This document shows positions 3,021 to 23,724 of a stretch of DNA of 23,724 bases, piece by piece (position 1 is the stretch's first letter; each line of letters begins with the position of its first letter). The notes beneath the pieces were generated by a model. It was not told the DNA's origin, searched no databases, and saw only the letters and a list, made by a program, of their open reading frames with translations. Made by a program: the position numbers and the translations under genes. Source of the DNA: a virus. The stretch covers positions 1 through 23,724 of IMG/VR virus record IMGVR_UViG_3300004369_000856, one strand, 5' to 3'.

Positions 3021-4508
3021 TTAAACGACTGACGCCGTTAAGTTTGATTTGACAATATCAACTTCGATTTTGTCGCCGACAGTACTTGTTCGTACTCCAA
3101 CTTTTGCTTTGATTGTTCCCTCTGCAAGTTGTGATGTCGGATTAAGTTTTGCATCACAGCGAACTGTGTAGCCAGGGTCGAGTTTTCTGCCATTGGAATC
3201 AAACGCCTCGTAAAGTGCGCCGACATCTCGCAAAGGAGCAAGAATCGAAATCAGACGTGACTCAATTGCACTGAAAATTGTGTTTCTTCCATCAATTGAG
3301 CTAAAGACCAAATCTTCAAGACTTCTTCCAGCTTCAACCACAATATGGTTGACGGTGTCTTGTGATGTGATATATCTGAAGTTTTCAATATCTGCAGAAA
3401 GCGAACGAGCGCCATAAATACGAACTGTATTTTGGATAACTCTGATTGCGTTTACTGAACCAAGGTCCAAAGCATCGCCTGTCGCTTTGTCAATATCTGC
3501 TTCAGTTCCCACGACGAATCTTGAAGCTGAAAGCAATCCAGCTGCTGGAACGTGAGAGCCTGTTTGGTTGTGGGCCAAAGCACGCTTTGCAGCCACATAG
3601 CCGTCTGGTGGAATCATTCTGCTAATTCCAGCAACGCCTGTTGGAACCTCAATCCATGGGTAATACAGAGCGCAATGCTCAGCATTCTCTCCGCCCTGAA
3701 TTGACAGCGCTTTCGACAAGGCTCCAGCAGTGTTTGTTCCGAGGGCTGTGTGAAGAATAGCAATTCTGCTATTTGTGTTGGCATGTGAAATCAATGCAGC
3801 TTCAAAAGTGCCAGAAGTATTGTCTGGCGATGCAACCGCACCAGTTCCAAGAGCACCATTGAATGTGCCTAGAGCGGTGACGAATTCTGCGTCAGTTGGG
3901 GCAGAACCATCTGCTCCACCAGCAAAGACAACTTGAGCTTGAGTGCTCAAGACTGCTGAGCCATGAGGAGCTGTAACGCTTGCAGTCACATAACGAGCAG
4001 CAGTTGTGCTTGTATTAATTCTTCCTACTGCTTGGTTAACTGAGGTGCACGTTCCGGTTGAGTAAACCAAAACATTGTCCAAAAGAATTTGAATTGCAAA
4101 ATTCACACCAGCACTTGGCTGTGTGACAATTGTGCTCAAACCTCCAGCGAATGAGCCTGCTGTTGCATTTGCCCATGTGCCCGAGCCATTTGCTGTCAAC
4201 GTCATTGCGGCGCTTGCTGAGCCGGTATTCAAAACTTTTGTTGCAGATGTTGCGCCTGTGCCAACAACTCGTTTTACGTAGCAGCGAGTGCCGCCCTCTT
4301 CGAAAAACGTTTCAACTGTTGGATGAAGGTACGAGGTTGAAATAAACCCACCAAACATATTCTCAAATTCAGCAAGACTCTCAATCAATACTGGGGCAGC
4401 TGATGTGCCTTTTTGGGCGGTGCCGACAACGAAGAGTTGTGATGATTCGCGGACCGTTGCCGAAGACGGGCCAGTTCTGACTGCTGTTGAAATGACTACA
4501 CCGGGCAT
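3021..4508 (-). CDS. Contractile tail sheath protein
   Basis: A 495-residue protein with the hallmarks of phage tail sheaths. The N-terminus is PGVVISTAVRTGPSS, followed by a segment with FVVGTAQKGTSAAP, an L-x-E-F-x-x-M-F-G-G motif and HPTVETFFEEGGTRCYVKRVVG. The middle (about residues 80-235) is a Thr/Ala/Gly-rich beta domain that probably faces outward and varies between phages. The C-terminal part, from SRMIPPDGYVAAKRA to the end, has the conserved NAIRVIQNTVRIYGARSLS and FRYIT blocks and the helical end (FSSIDGRN, then ISILAPLRDVGALYEAFD) typical of the sheath core. The start at 4508 has an AGGAAGG Shine-Dalgarno four bases upstream. The sheath contracts around the tube to drive it through the host envelope, so this gene shows that the phage is a myovirus. 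Confidence 0.93.
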   Translation of the reverse strand: MPGVVISTAVRTGPSSATVRESSQLFVVGTAQKGTSAAPVLIESLAEFENMFGGFISTSYLHPTVETFFEEGGTRCYVKRVVGTGATSATKVLNTGSASAAMTLTANGSGTWANATAGSFAGGLSTIVTQPSAGVNFAIQILLDNVLVYSTGTCTSVNQAVGRINTSTTAARYVTASVTAPHGSAVLSTQAQVVFAGGADGSAPTDAEFVTALGTFNGALGTGAVASPDNTSGTFEAALISHANTNSRIAILHTALGTNTAGALSKALSIQGGENAEHCALYYPWIEVPTGVAGISRMIPPDGYVAAKRALAHNQTGSHVPAAGLLSASRFVVGTEADIDKATGDALDLGSVNAIRVIQNTVRIYGARSLSADIENFRYITSQDTVNHIVVEAGRSLEDLVFSSIDGRNTIFSAIESRLISILAPLRDVGALYEAFDSNGRKLDPGYTVRCDAKLNPTSQLAEGTIKAKVGVRTSTVGDKIEVDIVKSNLTASVV

Positions 4509-7330: not shown

Positions 7331-7879
7331 CTATCTATCCGGATTAGGTGGCGATTCCACGAGGGACGCCCTGTCTACGGTTTTTGAGTCAGCTTCAATA
7401 GGGACCCAGGCTCTAGCGTATGTATGTTCCTGTATTTTTCGGCTTTTGATGATGCTCGCATCCAGAAGTAGGTCGAGTTCGTCAACCCCCATGGATAGTA
7501 AGTTCTTGAAATCCTTGATGTCATACTTCCCTGATGAATTGATTTTTCTAATTATTCTAGAAAGCGGCTTAGCTACTATTGTGCCCTTACCTCTATTTAG
7601 TTGAACATGCAGCATCATTGCATCAATTAGGTCGCAGTCATGCTCAACCACAGGGATAAGTCCTTTTGTTGCTTCTGCAATACTTTTAACATTTTTTGCT
7701 AAAAGCCAACGCTCGCTTCCGTCAATTATCTCGCCGGTCCATTTAGAGACATGGATTGGTTGAATAAACCCATGTTGCTGCAAGGATGCAGAAAGCACCA
7801 TTAAGTCTGGGCGCAATATATATGTTGCTTTCCATTCAGGCACTTTTAGTGAATCGATTTGGACGTAATTAATATTCAT
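7331..7879 (-). CDS. ParB/Srx-like protein, IbrB-type partner of a PAPS-reductase-like protein
   Basis: A 182-residue protein with a ParB/sulfiredoxin N-terminal fold. The pattern is IDSLKVPEWK, then LMVLSASLQQHGFIQPIHV, W-T-G-E-I-I-D-G-S-E-R-W-L-L-A, and VVEHDCDLIDAMMLHVQLNRGKG, matching the ParB order (L-x-x-S-I-x-x-x-G-x-x-x-P-I, then the G-x-x-R box, then the N-R-x-K-G end). The D-G-S-E-R-W box replaces the usual G-E-R-R and is typical of IbrB-like proteins. Its start overlaps the end of the PAPS-reductase-like gene by 11 bases. In E. coli prophages the IbrA/IbrB pair has this same combination, described as regulatory. Whether this one is an NTP-hydrolysing switch, a nuclease or part of a modification enzyme cannot be told. 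The C-terminal ~60 residues match nothing I know. Confidence 0.8.
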   Translation of the reverse strand: MNINYVQIDSLKVPEWKATYILRPDLMVLSASLQQHGFIQPIHVSKWTGEIIDGSERWLLAKNVKSIAEATKGLIPVVEHDCDLIDAMMLHVQLNRGKGTIVAKPLSRIIRKINSSGKYDIKDFKNLLSMGVDELDLLLDASIIKSRKIQEHTYARAWVPIEADSKTVDRASLVESPPNPDR

Positions 7880-9011
7880 CTGTGTTGCTCGTTTCTTGTT
7901 CTTCGATAGTTCTTACGGCGTGGGCTTTTGTTTTTGGGCCTATCGGTGTTGGTGAATTTACGTCTATGTCGTTTAACAATAAATTTCTTATTAGCCAATT
8001 TATAGGATAAGCCCTTGGGTCTGAATTATGTTTCTGTCTAAATTTAGAAACAAACACTCGCGCTTCTCTTTTGCGTCTTTCTCCAATTAGGAAGTCTTCT
8101 ATGAATTCCCCGGCGCCAGAAAAACCATCATCGGAATATCTACTAATTAATTTTTCGACATCAAACTCAGGCCACCAACGTCTTTGCGCATCTATGTGTG
8201 GGAAACACTCAAAAAGCCTGTCATAGAATTCTGGCTCCGTGGCAACGACATCACCAATTCTTCTTATCGCAACACTGTGTAATGGAATCCCCACTCTTGT
8301 ATTGCTTTGCGTTAAAGCTGCCAGTTCGTAGTATTCACAAAACTCTGCATCATGTTCTTCTGTGATGAATTTAAAAACATCATCAGTGTTCCAGTCATAA
8401 ATGATTTTGGCAAATTTGAGTGGAATGCTTTGTTTAAGCCTGTACGGGTGATTAATGTAATTTTCGTGAAGTTTTTGCACGACGGAACGATAGCGAACCA
8501 TTGATTCACTGGCCCTGACGCCAGTTATAAAAGCAACACTACCTTTTTTATTGTTCATTGTATAAACGTCAGTTGGTTCAGGCAAAGACCGAGAATGGTC
8601 TAACCCAAAATGGGTTGCGTTAATTGCCCAGGGCGGCATGTCTCTGATTAATCTGTTTTCTTTCAATCTTCTTTCGCTCCATAAAAGAGTTGTTTCCCTC
8701 CTACCAAGAACCCAGATTTCTGCTGGGTACGGTAAGCAATACCACTCCATGTCTACCCATGGATAATTCCTTACTTTTTCCACATAACTAATTGTGGTCG
8801 GTGAAACCATTTCTTCATCACGAAAAATTACCTTAACTGGACCTAAATTTCTTTCTTCATGAATTTCTTTAGCTAAATACAAAACAGCAGTGGAGTCTTT
8901 ACCCCCAGAAAACTGAACGCATACCGTATCAAAAGTGTCGTATACGTGTCTTATTCTGGCGCGTGCGGCATCTACGCAAGACATATTTAAAAACATGCGC
9001 TGCCTAGTCAT
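7869..9011 (-). CDS. PAPS-reductase-like PP-loop protein (IbrA/DndC-type)
   Basis: A 380-residue protein of the PP-loop ATPase superfamily. The diagnostic S-G-G-K-D-S motif is at residues 35-40 (VCVQFSGGKDSTAVLYLA), followed by VKVIFRDEEMVSP and WYCLPYP. This arrangement matches phosphoadenosine-phosphosulfate reductase-like proteins that activate a substrate as an adenylate. Later segments (FITGVRASESMVRYRS, a W-x-x-D-D-V-x-x-F-I block and an R-x-G-x-P-L region) resemble IbrA/DndC-like members rather than a sulfate assimilation enzyme. There is no adjacent sulfite reductase or thioredoxin gene. No clear Shine-Dalgarno precedes the ATG at 9011; the ATG at 8996 is an alternative start. Its overlap with one ParB-like gene and 23-base distance from another argue for a joint complex. 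Role (base modification, sulfur transfer or regulation) is unknown. Confidence 0.85.
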   Translation of the reverse strand: MTRQRMFLNMSCVDAARARIRHVYDTFDTVCVQFSGGKDSTAVLYLAKEIHEERNLGPVKVIFRDEEMVSPTTISYVEKVRNYPWVDMEWYCLPYPAEIWVLGRRETTLLWSERRLKENRLIRDMPPWAINATHFGLDHSRSLPEPTDVYTMNNKKGSVAFITGVRASESMVRYRSVVQKLHENYINHPYRLKQSIPLKFAKIIYDWNTDDVFKFITEEHDAEFCEYYELAALTQSNTRVGIPLHSVAIRRIGDVVATEPEFYDRLFECFPHIDAQRRWWPEFDVEKLISRYSDDGFSGAGEFIEDFLIGERRKREARVFVSKFRQKHNSDPRAYPINWLIRNLLLNDIDVNSPTPIGPKTKAHAVRTIEEQETSNTDEY

Positions 9012-9034
9012 AGAAAATTTATTTAATTTTTTCT

Positions 9035-9814
9035 TTAGATTTCACAATGTTCATCAATAAAATTTAATAACTTTTGTCCAGTAGTTGAACCATCGATACT
9101 TGGGTTATTACGCAACCAAGTTATAAACCTGTACCATTTTTTTTGCTGGTCTGAATTGTCAAACACTAAAGGAACTTGTACCGCAGCACTTGGAGCAGCC
9201 CCAGGCATAGCCACAGTAGAGCCACGAATTGCGATGTCTTCGTGATTCATTTGATTGTCGGCAACTATCCTCATTTCACCGTCTTCCGTTTTTTGAACCA
9301 AATTATCGATTTCTCGTGCAGTTTCTTGTTGCGCAGCAGTAAATTCTTTTTTTGTTTCTATGTTTTCGTTTTCTATTTTTGCCAAAACTGCATCGCTTTC
9401 GTAGGATGCAATTTCAAACTCATCCCAACCCATATCTTCAAGAAGTTCTGGATAGAAATCAGATATTGACACAATCATGTCTAAAAGCAATTCTGGTTCT
9501 GTGTAGCCAAGTTCCATAGTTCTGTTATCAGCCAGCGCATAGGCAATAGCACGCTTGTCATCAGCGTCTAAAAAAACTACGGCGATTTTGTCCCACCCTA
9601 AAGCTTTTGCTGCTTCTAATTGGTGGTTACCAGCAATAACTGTAGATGTGCCGTCTTCATTCTTTTTGGCAACAATGGGTTTTATTTGCCCAAACTCTGA
9701 GTAAGAGGAAATAATTGCATCGACATTTCCGACACGAGGGTTATTTTCTAGGGGACTAAGACTTTCAATTGGGACCGCAAGGGATAAAAGGGATTTATGT
9801 ATGTTGGATTTCAT
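9035..9814 (-). CDS. ParB-like partition/nuclease-domain protein
   Basis: A 259-residue protein with a clear N-terminal ParB domain: VPIESLSPLENNPRVGN, then a strand-helix with I-S-S-Y-S-E-F-G-Q-I-K-P-I-V-A, STVIAGNHQLEAAKALGW, and AYALADNRTMELGYTEPE. The G-N-H-Q box stands where chromosomal ParB has G-E-R-R. After it comes a linker and a separate C-terminal domain (about residues 210-259, VPLVFDNSDQQKKWYRF to LLNFIDEHCEI) that looks like a small partner-binding module. The ATG overlaps the stop of the upstream gene in an ATGA arrangement, so translation is coupled. With no ParA in the window a plasmid partition role is unlikely; phage ParB-like proteins of this type often sit with PP-loop or methyltransferase genes. 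Confidence 0.85.
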   Translation of the reverse strand: MKSNIHKSLLSLAVPIESLSPLENNPRVGNVDAIISSYSEFGQIKPIVAKKNEDGTSTVIAGNHQLEAAKALGWDKIAVVFLDADDKRAIAYALADNRTMELGYTEPELLLDMIVSISDFYPELLEDMGWDEFEIASYESDAVLAKIENENIETKKEFTAAQQETAREIDNLVQKTEDGEMRIVADNQMNHEDIAIRGSTVAMPGAAPSAAVQVPLVFDNSDQQKKWYRFITWLRNNPSIDGSTTGQKLLNFIDEHCEI

Positions 9815-15514: not shown

Positions 15515-17563
15515 ATGGCCTGGAACTCAAGCAATAATAAATCATTGAATAACGACAAGACCAAGTCTGTTGGTCCTGGTGCCCCTATTGCATCAAACCC
15601 GACTTTTGCCGGGAAAGCTTATAAAGACGGGTGGGATATTGAGCGTGCATACAAGGAGGGGATGCAAAAAATTACATGGGTTGCGCGATGCATAGACGCA
15701 ATTGCTGGAAATCAAGCTCGTTTGCCAATCATTTTAAGAAAAGATAATTCACCAACCGGCGAAATGCTTACTGGCCGTAAAGCCGAAAAAGAAAACCTAC
15801 TTGAAATTCTAAACACAAAATCCAACATCGGAGAAAACGCTTTCATATTTAGGTACCGGCTTTCTTCTCAGCTCCTATTGGGGACACGCGGAGTTTTTAT
15901 AGAAAAAATTCGTGGTCGTGACGGCAGCATAGTTGGCCTCAGTCTTCTGCCACCCCAATCAACAGCACCGATACCAGACCCAAAAACTTTTGTGTCTGGA
16001 TACGAAGTTCAGATGCCATACGGTCAAAAAATAATAATGAAACCAGACGATGTATGTTGGATAAGAAGACCCCACCCGATAGACCCATATTTGTCACTTA
16101 CCCCACTTGAATCTTGTGGTATTGCTCTAGAAATAGAGAACCTCGCAAAACTCTACAATCGAAACTATTTAATGAACGATGGTCGACCAGGTGGACTGTT
16201 GGTCCTTAAGGGTGAAATTGACGACGACGATAAGGATGAACTGAAAAGCCGTTTTAGGGGAAATATTTCAAGAACTGGATACACGTCGGTAATCTCGTCC
16301 GAAGACGGTGTTGATTATATTGACACAAGTGCCTCACCGCGAGATGCGGCATATTTGCAAATGAGGCAAATAACGAAAGAAGAAATTCTTGCTTCATTTG
16401 GTGTCCCTGAGTCGGTAATCGGCAACGCAGCTGGAAGAACTTTCTCTAACGCAAGCGAGGAAATTCGTGTTTTCTGGATGGAAACAATGATGCCTCACCT
16501 AGAACCTTTAGCTAGAGGTTTGGACGAGTTGGATGAAAAAAATTATGTTGACTTCGATTTATCAGAAGTGCCGATTCTTCAGCTTTACAAGCAAGAGCGA
16601 GAGCGATATCTTTTGCAGGAATTCCAAACTGGGCTGATTAGTAACAACGAATATCGACTTGGGTCCGGTCGCAAAGAGACCGAGAGCGATTTAGCTGACT
16701 CCCTATTAATGAATCCTAATTTGATTCCAATTTCTAACACAAAGAAGAAAATGGAAGACCAGCCAAAAGCCGATATTCCTCAGCCTGGAGCACCTGGTAT
16801 GCCACCAATGCCTGGAATGCCTCCTGCTCCCGAAATGCCACCAATGCCAGGTGCACCACCAGTGCCAGGTGAGCAGCCACTTGACCCCAATACAATGGCT
16901 GGCGCTTTAGCTCAAAGCACCATACCCCCAGACGCATTGAGTGCTCCTGCGACAACCGCAGCACCTGTTCCCGAAGGTGCAGCAAGTGAATCATCATCGG
17001 CAATGATGTATAAATCCGAAGAGGACAATGTAAGTCAAACAATTTCTCGTTGGGAAGAAATTCTAGACAGAAGTCTTGAAAGAGTCTTGGAAAGACAAGA
17101 GAGAGTGGTTCTGGAAAAAGCTGGAAGCAGTAGAGCGAAGAAGGGTTTATTTACTGGCACCTTGGATATTGATTCTTTAATATCTATAGAAACATGGGAC
17201 AGGCAGATGGATGATGACATTCAGCCTGTTTTGTCTGCCATCATTCAGGATTCCATGGCAATAAAATTTGGAGAAAAAGGAAAATCAAAATCTCTTAAAA
17301 CCAAAAAAAATAGTCACCAATCCGATATTCGTGCACAAATTGAGTCTCAGATGAATCGAGTTAAACAAATCAATAAAGAAAATTCCAAGGCCATATATAA
17401 TACAATGATTGCTTGTCTTAATATCCCTGGAGAAGAAGAACGTGCTATTGAGTTCCGAAAAGCCTTAGTTTCTCTTTACACAAATCTTATGGCAAAACAA
17501 ATATTTGATGTTTCAGAAGACGAAACACGCCGCGCATGGAGTTTTGGTCAACAAATAAAATAG
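15515..17563 (+). CDS. Portal protein with proline-rich linker and C-terminal extension
   Basis: A 682-residue portal of the HK97-like family. The N-terminal two thirds show the family pattern: WVARCIDAIAGNQARLPI, SRLSSQLLLGTRGVFIEKI-type wing strands (RYRLSSQLLLGTRG), W-I-R-R-P-H-P, LTPLESCGIALEIENLAKLYN, then G-L-L-V-L-K-G and IPESVI-like FGVPESVIGNAAGRT, F-W-M-E-T-M-M-P-H-L. A proline/methionine-rich linker (about residues 422-455, P-G-M-P-P repeats) leads to a helical C-terminal domain of ~200 residues (TISRWEEILDRSLERVLERQ to the end). The portal is the dodecameric DNA gate of the head. The C-terminal domain may be an internal extension projecting into the capsid, as seen in some actinophage portals; that part is inference. 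Confidence 0.9.
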   Translation: MAWNSSNNKSLNNDKTKSVGPGAPIASNPTFAGKAYKDGWDIERAYKEGMQKITWVARCIDAIAGNQARLPIILRKDNSPTGEMLTGRKAEKENLLEILNTKSNIGENAFIFRYRLSSQLLLGTRGVFIEKIRGRDGSIVGLSLLPPQSTAPIPDPKTFVSGYEVQMPYGQKIIMKPDDVCWIRRPHPIDPYLSLTPLESCGIALEIENLAKLYNRNYLMNDGRPGGLLVLKGEIDDDDKDELKSRFRGNISRTGYTSVISSEDGVDYIDTSASPRDAAYLQMRQITKEEILASFGVPESVIGNAAGRTFSNASEEIRVFWMETMMPHLEPLARGLDELDEKNYVDFDLSEVPILQLYKQERERYLLQEFQTGLISNNEYRLGSGRKETESDLADSLLMNPNLIPISNTKKKMEDQPKADIPQPGAPGMPPMPGMPPAPEMPPMPGAPPVPGEQPLDPNTMAGALAQSTIPPDALSAPATTAAPVPEGAASESSSAMMYKSEEDNVSQTISRWEEILDRSLERVLERQERVVLEKAGSSRAKKGLFTGTLDIDSLISIETWDRQMDDDIQPVLSAIIQDSMAIKFGEKGKSKSLKTKKNSHQSDIRAQIESQMNRVKQINKENSKAIYNTMIACLNIPGEEERAIEFRKALVSLYTNLMAKQIFDVSEDETRRAWSFGQQIK

Positions 17564-17671: not shown

Positions 17672-20600
17672 ATGCCCTCGATGCAGAATGCGGAAATACA
17701 ATACAAAGCCAGTGCGGGCACCTTCAACCTTGACGAGGCTCAGGGTATTGTCGAGTGTTTTGTTGCGGGTATTGGGAACAAGGACTCGGTTGGCGATGTT
17801 TGTGCGACAGGGGCTTTCACTAAAAGCCTTCTAAGAAGAAAACCGCGTGTGGTGTGGGGCCACAATTGGAATGACCCAATAGGTAAGGTTTTGGATATTT
17901 ATGAGGTCCCAGCAAGCGACTCTCGTTTGCCAATGAAAATGAAAATGGCCGGTATCGGCGGTCTTTACGCAAAAGTTCAATTTAATCTTCAGTCAGAAAA
18001 GGGCCGAGAAGCCTTTGCAAATGTTGCTTTCTTTGGCGAAGAACAAGAGTGGTCAATCGGCTACAAAACACTAAGGGCTCAGTACGACCAAAACATGCAA
18101 GCCAATATTCTTCACGAAGTCGAACTTTATGAAGTAAGCCCTGTTCTCCATGGAGCCAATCAACTTACTGGAACAATTTCAGTCAAAAACGACTCTGGCA
18201 AGTCCGAAACAATTGAGCGAACGGTATTTGCTTCTGGGCCTATGCAGGAAGCCATAAATGTCAAACCTATTACGTCTCAAGAAAATAATGCGCAAGATGA
18301 TTTGCTACAAAAGATATCTAGCGAATTGGAAAAAAGAACAGCATCAAAGATAAAAATTATATCCCTAGATAAAAACTCAGTTGTTTTTGATAGACAAACC
18401 AGCGACGGCCTTGTTTCTAAGTACATGTGCAAGTACCACTATGACGGCCAAGAGTTGATGTTTGGACAACCGCAAAGAATAGTTGTTCAAAAGCCAAACA
18501 TTAATCCATCCATGGTTCCTTCTCAACAAGGTAAGCCAACCATGCATGGAAGAGTAACAAAACCAGTACCTGTTATGCCGATGCCTGTAGCAATTAAGCC
18601 CGGAGAAAATGGTCCTATTTCCGTTCCCTTGCCTGTTGTCGTCTACGAGGATTCTTCAAGAAATAAACCAATAACACCAAAGCCGTTAGACAACGAAGAG
18701 CAAGCTTTGGCTGATGCGCTTGTTCGCATAACTAAAAAATATGGCAAATTTAATGAAGACAAAAAAGGTGTTTATGCGGCCTACACACCGGCGGCAGATA
18801 ATGAATTAATTAACATTGGTGTTAAGTGTTCTAATTGTGTTTTCTTTAAGGGTGAAGGCTCCTGCAGGATTATAGATAAGGCCGTTGAGGCTGACGGTCG
18901 CTGTAGGTTTGCAGTCATCCCGCCAGGCGTTGTTGGCGGAAGCGCTATAGATAAAAAAGAATACAATGATTTCCTGGATGAAGAAGAAGTTAAATGGGTT
19001 GAGGATATTGAAGAAAAATACCCAGGCGAATTTATTTTTGGAGTTTTAAGGAACGTAATAAAAAAACGTCGCAGAAAACGTAAAAAATATAAAGAGCTCA
19101 ATGAATTTGATGCTGAAGAATATGCGATTAAAGAAAAAACTTTGGCTTCAGAAAAAGAAAAATTCTTTTACATCCCCGTTGATGTAGAAAATGCTTTTGA
19201 AGTCAAGTCCTTGCTTGACACAGTACTTGACCACCATAGGGTTGATTCGTTTGTTGATGAGTACGGAATTGTTCTGACGTCTGGATTAACAGATGAATCA
19301 GTTGATGCGATAAATATCGCAGTAAAAGGTATCGGAACAAGAATAGGAAAAAGAATCGGTAGCGGTCTAATTAATAGACCTAGAATCGGTGACAGAAAAA
19401 AAAAACTTGGTAGCGGAAGAATAGATATCCCTACTGGCGGTATGCGCGGTACAAAAAAACCAACAGGAAACCGTCGCGACGTTGATGGCGATGGCTGGGC
19501 CGACGAAGGCACTACAAACCCAGTATGGGTTGGCCAACGTTCAGGTGCAAATGTTACACCGGAACGCAAGCCAAAGAAATTATCTTCGGGCACACTTGGA
19601 CGCAGAAAATTAAGTTCCGGAGCAAAAACCCAGATAGCGGAAAACGACGAAAAAATTGCTGAACTAAAAGAGGAAATAGATAGAGCATTTCGCCTAGGTA
19701 GCAGTCCGAGCGGTAGAGGTGATGCTGTTTTTCAAAACTCTCTAAGACAAAACCTCTTAGATATGTCTCAAGAACTAAGGTTACTCGAGGCGAAAAAAAA
19801 GCGTTTAGAGACTGAATCTAGACGTCCATCGAAAAAGAAAAACGTAGAAGCACCATTCCCTGAAGCAAAACCAAAGCGTGTATCAAAACAGCAACGTGAT
19901 GACGAAAAAATTTATAAGCGTCGCAACGACGGAGAGTCTCTTGCCGAGGTTGCTGAAAGCCTTGGTCTTTCTCGTGAGGAAGTAAGAAAACGCGAGCAAC
20001 GACACATGCGTCGTCTTCGCAAAGAAGAAGGCGAAAGACTAAGCGAAGACTCAAATCGTTCCGGCGAAAAATTGTCTTCTGGTTTGTTGCCCATTAGTGA
20101 GGCACTAAGAAGGTCAGAGCCTCCTGATTTCACCCCAGAAGATAAGCAAAAAATTATGATGCGTGTCCGAGATACACCAGAGTACCAAGACTTAAGGGAA
20201 ATTCAAGAAATACTTGATGGTTATGTCGCTAGAGGTAGGACACGCGCATCTATGCCAGACCTTGACAAAAGAGAAATAGCGGCAAATAGGGCTGTCCAAG
20301 ATAGGCGCGACTACATCATTGAGCAAATGATTGCTAGAGGGGAGATAACCCGACCAAAAAGAAGCGAAGACTCAAATCGTTCCGGCGAAAAATTGTCTTC
20401 TGGGAAGACACCGCCTTCACCTAGGGCTTTTGTGAATTCATCTAATTTGTCAGACGAAAAATTACAAATAACAATAAAAAACGCACCCAAAGAACGCCTC
20501 GATTTAGAGATTAACGGTAAAAAAGTTGGTCGCTTTCCCAATAATCAGTCAATAGACCGATTCGTGCAGGATGTACTGAAGGAAATAGAAAGTCGAAAAC

Positions 20601-23600
20601 CAAGTGAAGACTCAAATCGTTCCGGCGAAAAATTGTCTTCTGGACGTAAAAAAAAAGGAAAGATAGCTAAACGCAAGCCATTCTCCCCCGAGGACCGACA
20701 AAGATTTGCTGACGGGGACAGGTTAAGAGCCAGAACAATTCCGAGCAAAAAGAAACCTGGCCCAAGTGTTGACGAATTTAGATTAAGCAGCGGATACAAC
20801 GGAGGGTCGAGACCCGCCCGCCGTCTTGCTCAGCTGAATCGCCGAGAAATCGAGCAAATTTATGTTCAAGAATCTAGAGGTATGGAAGAAGCAGCCAAAG
20901 AGCTTTTACGTAATCTCAAAACTCCGTCTCTCGATGAGAGTCTTGAAAAGGGTTCAAAATTAGACACCATTCGCGGGAATCTTAAAAAAACATTTACAAC
21001 TCCAGCCCTTGTTGGTTCTTTGTCGGATAATAAAAACAGAAAAAAAGACGGACCATGGTTGCTCTCATTTGAAAAATTAAGACCTCTTTTGAGAGACTCC
21101 AACGGTGAACCAATGTCTGATGAGAACATTAAAAAAATGTTCAACCTCAATGAAGACGAAATGAAAAAACTATTAGGGAAAAATGGGGCAATATCATCTG
21201 CTTCTGTTCAGTCATATTTGACTGCACATAGTCCGACTGGTGATATACCCGGTGAATCAGATGGGTTAATTAGAAAAATTTGGGGATTTGACTCAGCTCC
21301 ATACTGGTACGACGGCTTGGAAGACAATAGAGCAGTAAGTCGTGAAGATTATGACTCCGCCAAAGATGAATCAACCTTTTTGGCTGCCATCTACCCACTA
21401 GATGCGCCTATAGATTTTAAAACCTCAACAGAAATGGACGAAGACGTTCTTCCTAAAAAGAGAGAAATAGTTGTTGCGGAAGATGTAAAGCGCTCAATAG
21501 AAAGCGTGAAAGGAAAAGAATCTAAAGAGGCTTATGGTCTTGACAAGTTAATTGAAAAACTTAATCTGCCAGCCGATTCAGGAAAAAATCGAGAAGAAAT
21601 AGCTAAAGCTTTTGAAAAATTACTAGGAGTTCCAACAAGTGCGGAACAACTATTTACTCGGCCAAATTCATGGAGAAGAGTTGGTGTTCCAACAAATGTT
21701 GTTTTGGAATTAAAAAAACGCAAACACATCACTAGTGCTGGCGATGTTTTTGATAGTGATGAAGCCAGAAACTTTGATAAAGCAACAGAACAAAATAAAT
21801 TTTTTAGCGCTCTAGACAATCTTCTGAGAGCAAACGGAATACAAATAGGAGGAGGCAAGGGCAATCTTTCGGACAGAGTTATTGGGGAAATAATGGGGGA
21901 TGCGACCGGCTCCACACCTTTGGCAAAAATAGGTCGAGCATTCAAGGAAGCTGGAGAAAACAGGCCTTTCACCTACAAAGTGGGCGCTGCTGTTGTTTGG
22001 ACTCCAGAAGAAATTCAAAAAACTCTTGATGGAATTAATAAGGTAACAGGAAAAGATTTTAAAGTTTCAGACCTTAAATTGAGTAGCGGTAAATTCGGCA
22101 AAGGTGAAAGAAAAATAACACCCAAACTATCTTCGGGCAGAACTGGAGCTGAATCTTTTTCAGCCAATGAATCAATTAATGAAATTGACGAAAGATTGCG
22201 TACAGCCAAAAAAAGAGGTTCAAAAGTATTTAACGAAATGCTTCGAGCAGAGAGCAAAAAACAAAGTTCTCAAAAAGTAAAATCAAATCCACTAGACAAA
22301 ATGAAAGATGGGGAACGTCTTTCATCGGGCAAGCTTGATGAAGTCTATAAATCCATAACTCAAAAATTAATTAAAGCAATAGAAACTGCTGACGGGGACA
22401 AATGGGAAGCTCCCTGGTACAAGGTTGGTGCGTTTCCTAAAAATCCAACCAACAAAAACCGCCCATACTCAAACACAAACTTATTGTTCCTATTGATGGC
22501 GCAAGAAGATAAGGGATACACAAAACCATATTGGGCAACATATAAGCAATGGGAAAAATCTGGCGGTCAAGTAAGGGCTGGAGAAAAAGGAACTAAAATT
22601 CTTGTTCCAAGAGTTTATAAAGCAAAAGAAGATGCTGACGGAAACAAGAAAGAAGGCGGAGTCTTTTATTCGGTTGCAACAGTATTCAACGTTGACCAAG
22701 TAGATGGCGTGAATGTTGAAGAGATGGAAAATAAATTTCCAAAACTTTCAGAAGAACAAAGAGTTTCTCAGCTTGAAAGCGCTATCAAGGAAATAGGTGC
22801 AAAAATTACCGAAACCGCATCCGATAGAGCCTATTACAGCCCATCGAAAGACGAAATAGTTCTGCCGAACTTTGAAAATTTCAAATCTCCTTTAGATTTT
22901 TACGCAACCCAAGCTCACGAGTTGATGCACTGGACTGGACATACGTCGCGTCTAAATAGACCAAACATGAATTATTTTGGCAGTCCAGAGTACGCATACG
23001 AAGAATTAGTAGCAGAGATTGCTTCTGCTTTCTTCATGGCAGCACATGGTCTTTCTGCAGAACCACAGCCACAACATGCGATGTATCTTGCTTCATGGCT
23101 CAAGCGACTTAAGTCAGACCCTGACGCCCTACAAAAAGCAGTTTCCGATGCACAAAAAGCTGTAAATTTTGCCATCAAATTGTCTCCAAGTATGAGCAAA
23201 CAAATGGCCGTATCGGAAAACGTTGATGACGTACCTGGGATAACAGTTCCCGAAGTGGGCGGCAAGCTATCGTCGGGCAAAGCTCCTGAATTACCCGCCC
23301 TTACTAGGGCGCTCAAAAACGCAGGACTCGCTGAATCAGTAACCGAAAATATGATTACTGAGGCTCTTGGTATATGGAAGGACAACCCTTCACTACATAA
23401 GCAATACATTGAACGTCTTGATGGGGATGTTAATGGTGCAGTGTTCTCCTTGTATAACGACTACCTTGAGGACATGTTCGACCGCTCCCCAGAAGGGGTT
23501 GCCAAGATAGAGCGTGAGCTTAATGAGCAGTATGAGGCGGAAAGAAGTCTTTCATCAGGTAGACCATCAAAAAGACTTTCTCGTAGAGCTAAAGACAATG

Positions 23601-23724
23601 AGTCATCAAAGCTTTCGTCTGGCAAACAACCATGGGATGACTCAGATGTACAAAAAAGACTAATAGACGGTGCGAGAACAAAAAAGAAAACTAAAGCTGA
23701 CGGGAAAACCGAAAGCTTTATGGC
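17672..23724 (+). CDS. Giant prohead protease polyprotein (C-terminus beyond window)
   Basis: The frame is open from the ATG at 17672 (AAGGAG upstream) to the right edge, at least 2017 codons without a stop. Residues ~1-190 are an HK97-type prohead protease: V-V-W-G-H-N-W-N-D-P-I-G with His64, E-W-S-I-G-Y-K with Ser128, and V-E-L-Y-E-V-S-P-V with Glu151 or Glu154. Normal family members end near 200-250 residues. Next come a beta-rich domain (~215-265), a four-Cys motif (Cys386, 389, 398, 411) and a Ca-loop-like D-V-D-G-D-G-W-A-D-E (603-612). From residue 637 on, short L-S-S-G motifs divide it into segments: HTH (~748-785), three repeat cassettes (801, 908, 988), a 428-residue unknown block, an ArdC-like module (1554-1865), and a helical block (1870-1959). 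Processing by its own protease is the likely, unproven, purpose. Confidence 0.9.
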   Translation, partial: MPSMQNAEIQYKASAGTFNLDEAQGIVECFVAGIGNKDSVGDVCATGAFTKSLLRRKPRVVWGHNWNDPIGKVLDIYEVPASDSRLPMKMKMAGIGGLYAKVQFNLQSEKGREAFANVAFFGEEQEWSIGYKTLRAQYDQNMQANILHEVELYEVSPVLHGANQLTGTISVKNDSGKSETIERTVFASGPMQEAINVKPITSQENNAQDDLLQKISSELEKRTASKIKIISLDKNSVVFDRQTSDGLVSKYMCKYHYDGQELMFGQPQRIVVQKPNINPSMVPSQQGKPTMHGRVTKPVPVMPMPVAIKPGENGPISVPLPVVVYEDSSRNKPITPKPLDNEEQALADALVRITKKYGKFNEDKKGVYAAYTPAADNELINIGVKCSNCVFFKGEGSCRIIDKAVEADGRCRFAVIPPGVVGGSAIDKKEYNDFLDEEEVKWVEDIEEKYPGEFIFGVLRNVIKKRRRKRKKYKELNEFDAEEYAIKEKTLASEKEKFFYIPVDVENAFEVKSLLDTVLDHHRVDSFVDEYGIVLTSGLTDESVDAINIAVKGIGTRIGKRIGSGLINRPRIGDRKKKLGSGRIDIPTGGMRGTKKPTGNRRDVDGDGWADEGTTNPVWVGQRSGANVTPERKPKKLSSGTLGRRKLSSGAKTQIAENDEKIAELKEEIDRAFRLGSSPSGRGDAVFQNSLRQNLLDMSQELRLLEAKKKRLETESRRPSKKKNVEAPFPEAKPKRVSKQQRDDEKIYKRRNDGESLAEVAESLGLSREEVRKREQRHMRRLRKEEGERLSEDSNRSGEKLSSGLLPISEALRRSEPPDFTPEDKQKIMMRVRDTPEYQDLREIQEILDGYVARGRTRASMPDLDKREIAANRAVQDRRDYIIEQMIARGEITRPKRSEDSNRSGEKLSSGKTPPSPRAFVNSSNLSDEKLQITIKNAPKERLDLEINGKKVGRFPNNQSIDRFVQDVLKEIESRKPSEDSNRSGEKLSSGRKKKGKIAKRKPFSPEDRQRFADGDRLRARTIPSKKKPGPSVDEFRLSSGYNGGSRPARRLAQLNRREIEQIYVQESRGMEEAAKELLRNLKTPSLDESLEKGSKLDTIRGNLKKTFTTPALVGSLSDNKNRKKDGPWLLSFEKLRPLLRDSNGEPMSDENIKKMFNLNEDEMKKLLGKNGAISSASVQSYLTAHSPTGDIPGESDGLIRKIWGFDSAPYWYDGLEDNRAVSREDYDSAKDESTFLAAIYPLDAPIDFKTSTEMDEDVLPKKREIVVAEDVKRSIESVKGKESKEAYGLDKLIEKLNLPADSGKNREEIAKAFEKLLGVPTSAEQLFTRPNSWRRVGVPTNVVLELKKRKHITSAGDVFDSDEARNFDKATEQNKFFSALDNLLRANGIQIGGGKGNLSDRVIGEIMGDATGSTPLAKIGRAFKEAGENRPFTYKVGAAVVWTPEEIQKTLDGINKVTGKDFKVSDLKLSSGKFGKGERKITPKLSSGRTGAESFSANESINEIDERLRTAKKRGSKVFNEMLRAESKKQSSQKVKSNPLDKMKDGERLSSGKLDEVYKSITQKLIKAIETADGDKWEAPWYKVGAFPKNPTNKNRPYSNTNLLFLLMAQEDKGYTKPYWATYKQWEKSGGQVRAGEKGTKILVPRVYKAKEDADGNKKEGGVFYSVATVFNVDQVDGVNVEEMENKFPKLSEEQRVSQLESAIKEIGAKITETASDRAYYSPSKDEIVLPNFENFKSPLDFYATQAHELMHWTGHTSRLNRPNMNYFGSPEYAYEELVAEIASAFFMAAHGLSAEPQPQHAMYLASWLKRLKSDPDALQKAVSDAQKAVNFAIKLSPSMSKQMAVSENVDDVPGITVPEVGGKLSSGKAPELPALTRALKNAGLAESVTENMITEALGIWKDNPSLHKQYIERLDGDVNGAVFSLYNDYLEDMFDRSPEGVAKIERELNEQYEAERSLSSGRPSKRLSRRAKDNESSKLSSGKQPWDDSDVQKRLIDGARTKKKTKADGKTESFM
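20041..20082 (+). repeat. 42-bp coding repeat, copy 1
   Basis: First copy of a 42-base unit that encodes S-E-D-S-N-R-S-G-E-K-L-S-S-G in frame. It is identical base for base to copy 2 (20362-20403). It closes the HTH segment of the polyprotein. Identity at DNA level, in contrast to the synonymous variation at other L-S-S-G sites, shows recent duplication or gene conversion. Confidence 0.95.
20362..20403 (+). repeat. 42-bp coding repeat, copy 2
   Basis: Exact second copy, 321 bases (107 codons) after copy 1, in the same reading frame. The segment between the two copies encodes a helical, highly charged passenger of about 90 residues. Confidence 0.95.
20602..20643 (+). repeat. 42-bp coding repeat, copy 3
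   Basis: Third copy, 240 bases (80 codons) after copy 2 and in frame, differing at one base (T for C at 20605, silent). The passenger between copies 2 and 3 is about 65 residues with a beta-then-helix pattern (ITIKNAPKERLDLEING, IDRFVQDVLKEIES). Confidence 0.93.
22331..23050 (+). other. ArdC-like antirestriction module within the polyprotein (ssDNA-binding domain plus zincin)
   Basis: Residues ~1554-1865, bounded by L-S-S-G at 1550 and 1866, match the two-domain plan of ArdC proteins. First comes an ArdC-N-like domain: I-T-Q-K-L-I-K-A-I-E, W-E-A-P-W-Y, N-R-P-Y-S-N-T-N-L-L-F-L-L, WATYKQWEKSGGQVRAGEKG. After a charged linker comes a metallopeptidase-like domain with YYSPSKDEIVLPNFENF and H-E-L-M-H-W-T-G-H (His1749, Glu1750, His1753), and a downstream Y-E-E-L-V-A-E-I helix (Glu1777-1782) for the third metal ligand. 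ArdC of conjugative plasmids protects incoming DNA from restriction, and related domains occur in injected phage 'polyvalent' proteins. An early host-takeover role after injection fits. The metal site looks intact, so it may be an active peptidase. Confidence 0.85.

Follow-up and report, generated by a model that had tools for sequence, protein, structure and literature searches.

Long multidomain chains known as polyvalent proteins, which occur in phages and conjugative elements, carry ArdC-N, MPTase and helicase modules and are thought to enter the cell together with the DNA; some also carry an assemblin-like peptidase of the prohead protease superfamily, always at the C terminus, for which a role in processing has been predicted (Iyer et al. 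2017, PMC5512222). The prohead protease of T4, gp21, processes internal proteins at L/I-X-E, and that of phage SPN3US, gp245, cleaves at AXE in its own chain, in the capsid protein and in ejection proteins (PMC9026906, PMC10052503). In phage P1, the internal anti-restriction proteins of the Dar system are loaded early into the head, and the protease Pro trims DarA (PMC12810830). Here we describe a gene of an uncultured tailed phage, found in a stretch of 23,724 nucleotides (IMG/VR record IMGVR_UViG_3300004369_000856, positions 1 to 23,724; referred to in its entirety as the window), in which an S78 prohead protease is followed in the same reading frame by a string of passengers separated by the tetrapeptide LSSG. 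We consider it probable that this gene encodes a self-processing virion polyprotein, the S78 protease recognizing a delimiter that flanks the passengers.

The open reading frame (ORF) begins on the plus strand at ATG 17672, with the Shine-Dalgarno sequence AAGGAG five bases 5' of it (TTG 17609 is an alternative upstream start of the same ORF), and stays open to the end of the window (17672..23722), giving 2,017 amino acids. An earlier note on this DNA had claimed that a prohead protease continues without a stop into a long passenger string, and the open frame, together with the S78 match described below, bears this out. The window truncates the chain at the beginning of a helicase cassette (Table 1). 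In the closest relatives of the window the frame closes at 3,094 to 3,138 residues, with 14 to 16 LSSG motifs, and across LSSG relatives at 2,910 to 3,563 amino acids, being longer in some that are still open. An assembly artefact or a broken frame was considered and rejected: the same frame, open or closing at approximately 3,000 amino acids, is kept in many other contigs, and this, together with ratios of nonsynonymous to synonymous substitution rates (dN/dS) of 0.03 to 0.15 for the cassettes, argues that the chain is not an artefact. In relative L052 (17443-20648) the polyprotein stops and resumes in another frame with more LSSG motifs and a metallopeptidase, which may represent a frameshift, a split gene or an assembly error.

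The window chain contains exactly 12 LSSG motifs (nine KLSSG, two RLSSG and one SLSSG), the number that the earlier note had counted, and 11 of them are preceded by K or R. Composition alone predicts 0.07 (Poisson probability, ~2e-23), which rules out chance, and no other tetrapeptide is as enriched in the chain; LSSG was absent from the other window ORFs that were examined, and in a 160-kb relative 16 of the 20 [LF]SSG motifs fall within its two giant head-region genes. The 12 motifs have 12 different codon spellings, with a pairwise codon identity equal to that of a random draw; since the spellings have diverged and the amino acids have been kept, the motif is maintained at the protein level and not by DNA copying. 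A DNA repeat or gene conversion was accordingly rejected as the source of the motif, save for three near-identical linker copies. Codon identity exceeded the random level in three of eight chains tested, in which some motif copies may be recent. Internal translation starts at the segments were also rejected: near the motifs the only candidate start codons are TTG (mostly the Leu codon of the motif itself), ATG and GTG being absent, and Shine-Dalgarno sites do not occur consistently.

The protease query recovered more than 300 related IMG/VR stretches, from which 80 loci were kept, and approximately 50 more were added through a distant query. When 26 chains were cut at [LF]SSG, segment families emerged that recur in different orders, with the ArdC, helicase, helix-turn-helix (HTH) and 432-residue cassettes, among others, swapping neighbours between lineages. 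In phages with proteases ~95% identical, whole cassettes of 107, 112, 93 and 168 amino acids occur in some and are missing from others, with both limits exactly at a motif. Protein alignments end within 10 residues of a motif in 29 to 32% of cases, against 10% for random positions, and of 123 ends of DNA homology blocks, 31% lie inside LSSG codons (2.7% at random) and 61% within 6 bp of them (5% at random), although alignments can run on through a shared motif and so partly inflate these coincidences; such extension would itself make the motif the shared seam. Some seams lie off the motif, for example, one end of an 87-residue KTSC-like cassette. Judged from these comparisons, the LSSG motifs are module boundaries, and the expectation in the earlier note that homologs would place them at domain boundaries was strongly upheld.

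The form of the delimiter varies with the phage. Unbiased enrichment returned KLSSG in the lineage of the window, GLSSG in L043, L044 and L052, SLSSG in L060 and L065, and RLSSG in L069, and in more distant relatives motifs of the LRSxG and GFAS or GFSS types, LRSSG and GFASS being among the delimiters. The helicase cassette carries the local form wherever it resides: K-LSSG in the window's lineage, G-LSSG in L043 and L044, and S-LSSG in L060. Mutual information between the preceding residue and lineage was 0.64 to 0.68 bits (shuffles, 0.07 to 0.14), and that between the preceding residue and cassette family was 0.085, at the level of chance (p=0.94), the counts in both cases being contexts and not independent events. 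GC content or residue composition was rejected as the cause of the lineage-specific residue, and in most lineages the residue matches in a second, separate giant gene. In a protease tree all LSSG forms make up one clade and GFAS, GFSS and GLAS another, the tree coming from a short search with several weakly supported forks. As far as these sequences can tell, the delimiter tracks the protease tree and the lineage and not the cassette. We advance more tentatively, as an idea that we hold to be possible but somewhat short of probable, that this constitutes an address code, in which the prohead protease of each lineage reads its own delimiter (KLSSG, GLSSG, SLSSG, RLSSG, LRSSG, GFASS and others), any effector that acquires the local delimiter can be accommodated by the protease gene or by another head-gene carrier, and exchange of cassettes between lineages is restricted by the code.

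The identity of the protease head is supported by a match to Peptidase_S78 (PF04586; 41.5 bits against a cutoff of 21, E=2e-10) in Pfam and by assignment in PHROGs to phrog_80, head maturation protease (E=2.8e-27). H64 (in GHNWNDPIGK) and S128 (in WSIGY), numbered from the ATG, are invariant in 38 aligned relatives, and we take them, from what is known of the S78 family, to be the catalytic pair. The setting is that of a prohead protease: a portal gene lies directly upstream in the window, and the contigs of 12 of 16 relatives also bear a PF05065 HK97-type capsid gene. Residue 107 (ATG numbering; window 17990-17992) is Q, K or M in lineages with K/R motifs and N or S in those with G/S motifs, and it is the sole position that separates the lineages apart from two at the very end of the protease domain; as a specificity residue it is a possible lead, confounded by phylogeny. 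Searching the PDB with a profile of the protease head gave no sequence match, and an AlphaFold model of the protease with the first motifs (predicted local distance difference test score [pLDDT], 52) had no significant PDB match; herpesvirus proteases appeared among the structure matches of AlphaFold models only at E values of ~0.7 to 1.3.

We suggest that the N-terminal S78 protease recognizes a short delimiter, [K/R]-L-S-S-G in the window, flanking each C-terminal passenger. The protease head would bring the chain into the prohead, free itself at the first motif and then cut the remaining motifs inside the prohead, yielding separate internal head proteins: an HTH protein, an ArdC/metallopeptidase protein, a helicase and unknown modules. 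The freed pieces would leave the head along with the DNA and exert their effects during the first minutes of infection, and the common delimiter would render the passengers exchangeable cassettes. We infer cleavage by the S78 domain from its presence in every chain examined (partly by construction, the chains having been gathered with the protease as query; a search with the 432-residue cassette returned phages of the same group), from its position in cis, from the habit of its superfamily of cutting short motifs and from the way it sorts with the motif. Release of the head, cutting within the prohead and ejection are proposed by analogy with T4, P1 and the giant phages, and delivery into the host with the DNA is likewise suggested by the position of the gene and by its domain content, which comprises ArdcN, MPTase-PolyVal and HTH domains in the window, as in polyvalent proteins, and a UvrD helicase in relatives.

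Several observations weigh against this interpretation. The major capsid proteins of relatives contain no LSSG; their capsid junction reads ASFTSG, VSLTG or VSLSS, with none of these present in two LRSSG phages, and bears only a loose S-[LF]-[ST] resemblance to LSSG. The scaffold-like protein also lacks LSSG. AlphaFold modelled the head poorly, too poorly to position the motif within the active site. Because the protease and the capsid protein have a genome and its history in common, lineage covariation by itself does not discriminate between cutting and docking. The proposition that the motif is recognized by the phage's own protease, already made in the earlier note, gains from the lineage covariation of the delimiter and loses from the capsid junction. 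The same covariation would also be compatible with a partner in the capsid or scaffold of that phage, and the motif might instead be a docking or targeting peptide that binds the inner capsid or scaffold, comparable to T4 capsid targeting sequences and encapsulin cargo peptides, with the chain remaining whole or being cut elsewhere. T4 internal proteins do have targeting propeptides, but these sit at the N terminus and are clipped off by the protease; docking calls neither for a motif at each boundary nor for motif pairs around pieces of 10 to 21 residues, and a protease head is already available to carry the chain. We regard docking as unlikely.

The cutting enzyme might also be the zincin metallopeptidase of the cargo (MPTase-PolyVal), with the prohead protease maturing only the capsid. 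This enzyme is present in the window and in most LSSG relatives, and autoproteolysis of polyvalent proteins was proposed by Iyer et al. (PMC5512222), but it is lacking in the chains of L043, with ten GLSSG, and L044, with eight, and it was not found elsewhere in the 48-kb and 28-kb contigs of these two phages or in several contigs from outside the LSSG lineages, one of 136 kb, albeit that the contigs are possibly partial. In the window, moreover, the metallopeptidase is itself an LSSG-bounded passenger. On this evidence it is the less likely candidate for a general enzyme, and we give the proposal little credence. We consider it very improbable that LSSG is a mere flexible linker or recombination seam, recognized by nothing, in a protein injected whole. 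Three linkers (SEDSNRSGEK-LSSG) are near-identical in DNA and may aid recombination, but the codon spellings have otherwise fully diverged with the amino acids kept, the preceding residue is fixed by lineage even in a separate gene, and the motif is retained at 59% of the boundaries crossed by alignments, against 16% for random 4-mers and with flanks that are 37% identical, which is unlike a neutral linker. Processing by the S78 protease remains the interpretation that we favor.

The features of the chain are collected in Table 1; the ArdC-like module and the HTH that the earlier note had listed as passengers were both recovered by Pfam, the matches to Sigma70_r4, ArdcN and MPTase-PolyVal, like that to Peptidase_S78, exceeding their cutoffs. 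The three near-identical linkers suggest a recent insertion of a cassette through recombination between linkers. Most LSSG phages possess the 432-residue cassette, though in a different place, and it had no match among 50,697 isolated phage records; its AlphaFold model (pLDDT, 61) had no significant PDB match. In L006 and L010 the KTSC-like cassette takes the place of the short piece between motifs 7 and 8.

Table 1. Features of the polyprotein gene and its upstream neighbour in the window
Feature	Coordinates	Strand	Evidence or remark
Portal protein	15515..17563	+	Upstream neighbour, context, outside the chain; Pfam/PHROGs
S78 prohead protease with conserved C-terminal extension, 636 aa, up to first LSSG	17672..19579	+	Pfam match 17747-18178
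LSSG motifs 1 and 2 (19580, 19610), 10-aa piece motif to motif	19580..19621	+	Motif scan
Sigma-70 region 4-like HTH, passenger after motif 2	19904..20023	+	Pfam Sigma70_r4, 1.7e-6
Linker SEDSNRSGEK-LSSG, copy 1, motif 3 at 20072	20042..20083	+	
107-aa LSSG-bounded cassette	20072..20392	+	Also in L004; absent from L006, L010
Linker SEDSNRSGEK-LSSG, copy 2, motif 4 at 20393	20363..20404	+	
Linker SEDSNRSGEK-LSSG, copy 3, motif 5 at 20633	20603..20644	+	
432-aa cassette of no assigned function, motif 6 at 20783	20783..22078	+	Sequence comparison
LSSG motifs 7 and 8 (22079, 22127) around 16-aa piece	22079..22138	+	Motif scan
ArdC cassette, motif 9 at 22319	22319..23266	+	ArdcN 22340-22660 (E=3.6e-26) and MPTase-PolyVal 22769-23146 (E=3.6e-40), Pfam; anti-restriction protein, PHROGs
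94-aa cassette of no assigned function, motif 10 at 23267	23267..23548	+	
LSSG motifs 11 and 12 (23549, 23612) around 21-aa piece	23549..23623	+	Motif scan
First 37 aa of UvrD/Rep-type helicase cassette, cut by window end	23612..23722	+	Complete in L010 (652 aa)

Downstream of the chain, relatives encode first an acidic, scaffold-like protein, then the product of a second giant gene and then the capsid protein; the capsid gene is separate and lies ~13 kb away in relative G001, ruling out a capsid protein within the chain. The second giant gene, seen in the relatives examined (L082 to L094), encodes 1,700 to 2,900 residues with almost no Pfam matches, and in several relatives it has a recurrent stretch, RCPPGxPAANQFTDExGSNCF. 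Inspection by eye shows a similarity between the tail of the scaffold-like protein and the C-terminal portion encoded by the protease gene of Gordonia phages GMA6 and DalanDe, so that scaffold and protease seem to have come apart in this lineage. The LRSSG phages G007 and G015 have a short protease chain, and other genes of their head region bear passengers behind LRSSG, the longest reaching 2,585 residues; in LSSG phages, two such carrier genes are represented by ~240 residues without the motif. The principle of delimiter and cargo would thus not be bound to one carrier gene. A gene whose product starts GCxGAH...WMPC (L088:718-3381; L094:3274-6330) encodes 887 to 1,018 amino acids in LRSSG phages and ~240 in most LSSG phages, and the L088 version has an HTH and a zeta-toxin-like domain placed after LRSSG motifs. 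Elsewhere in the window, Pfam and PHROGs identify myovirus terminase and tail sheath genes, and on the minus strand (7869-9814) a phosphoadenosine phosphosulfate (PAPS) reductase-like gene lies beside a ParB-like gene, amid tail and replication genes. The sole genome match was a contig assigned to a Phycisphaerae metagenome-assembled genome, which may be a binned phage.

If this interpretation is correct, a tailed phage loads its head with many ejected proteins by means of one gene and one motif, and these may include proteins that aid the takeover of the bacterium. For a large group of uncultured phages, the motif would make the boundaries of the passengers, and hence the injected early proteins, legible in the sequence itself, and would provide a catalogue of unknown anti-defence candidates; the lineages would amount to a naturally occurring set of proteases matched with their cut sites, suited to the study of shifts in head protease specificity. 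A literature search for LSSG in connection with phage capsids found no paper, most subscription journals and all preprints lying outside its coverage.

The nearest S78 proteases from isolated phages (38 to 41% identity) belong to Gordonia phages GMA6, Hanem and DalanDe (Bendigovirus) and to Brevibacterium phage Cantare, all tail-sheath phages in which the S78 protease adjoins the capsid gene. Those of GMA6, Hanem and Cantare are 417 to 484 amino acids in length and have a scaffold-like tail and no LSSG chain, and the capsid maturation protease of DalanDe (L096:8632-13530) has ~1,120 amino acids fused at its N terminus, without the motif; this N-terminal part has a signature, VRTPEGAKKYGQPIGSVI, in common with separate large proteins of GMA6 and Cantare. 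As in our model, T4 gp21, phiKZ gp175 and SPN3US gp245 are serine prohead proteases that cut many head and ejection proteins, and also themselves, at a short motif (PMC9026906, PMC10052503), but their substrates are the products of separate genes cut in trans, whereas here most of the cargo is fused behind the protease, and their cut motifs are unrelated in sequence to LSSG. The Dar genes of P1 are likewise separate, with no fusion to a protease and no repeated delimiter reported (PMC12810830). The polyvalent proteins share ArdC-N, MPTase and helicase modules with the lineage of the window, in which, by contrast, the modules are separated by one short motif that changes with the phage lineage. 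The earlier note had held the fusion of the protease to a motif-punctuated cargo chain to be nonstandard; assemblin-like peptidase fusions had been reported in 2017, so that fusion in itself is less of a novelty than the note supposed, but those peptidases are C-terminal and the protease of the window is N-terminal. The self-processed phage cargo chain is an existing idea (Iyer et al., PMC5512222), and what appears to be newly described here is the placement of the protease at the N terminus, a delimiter that sets the modules apart and follows a lineage code, and the exchange of cassettes.

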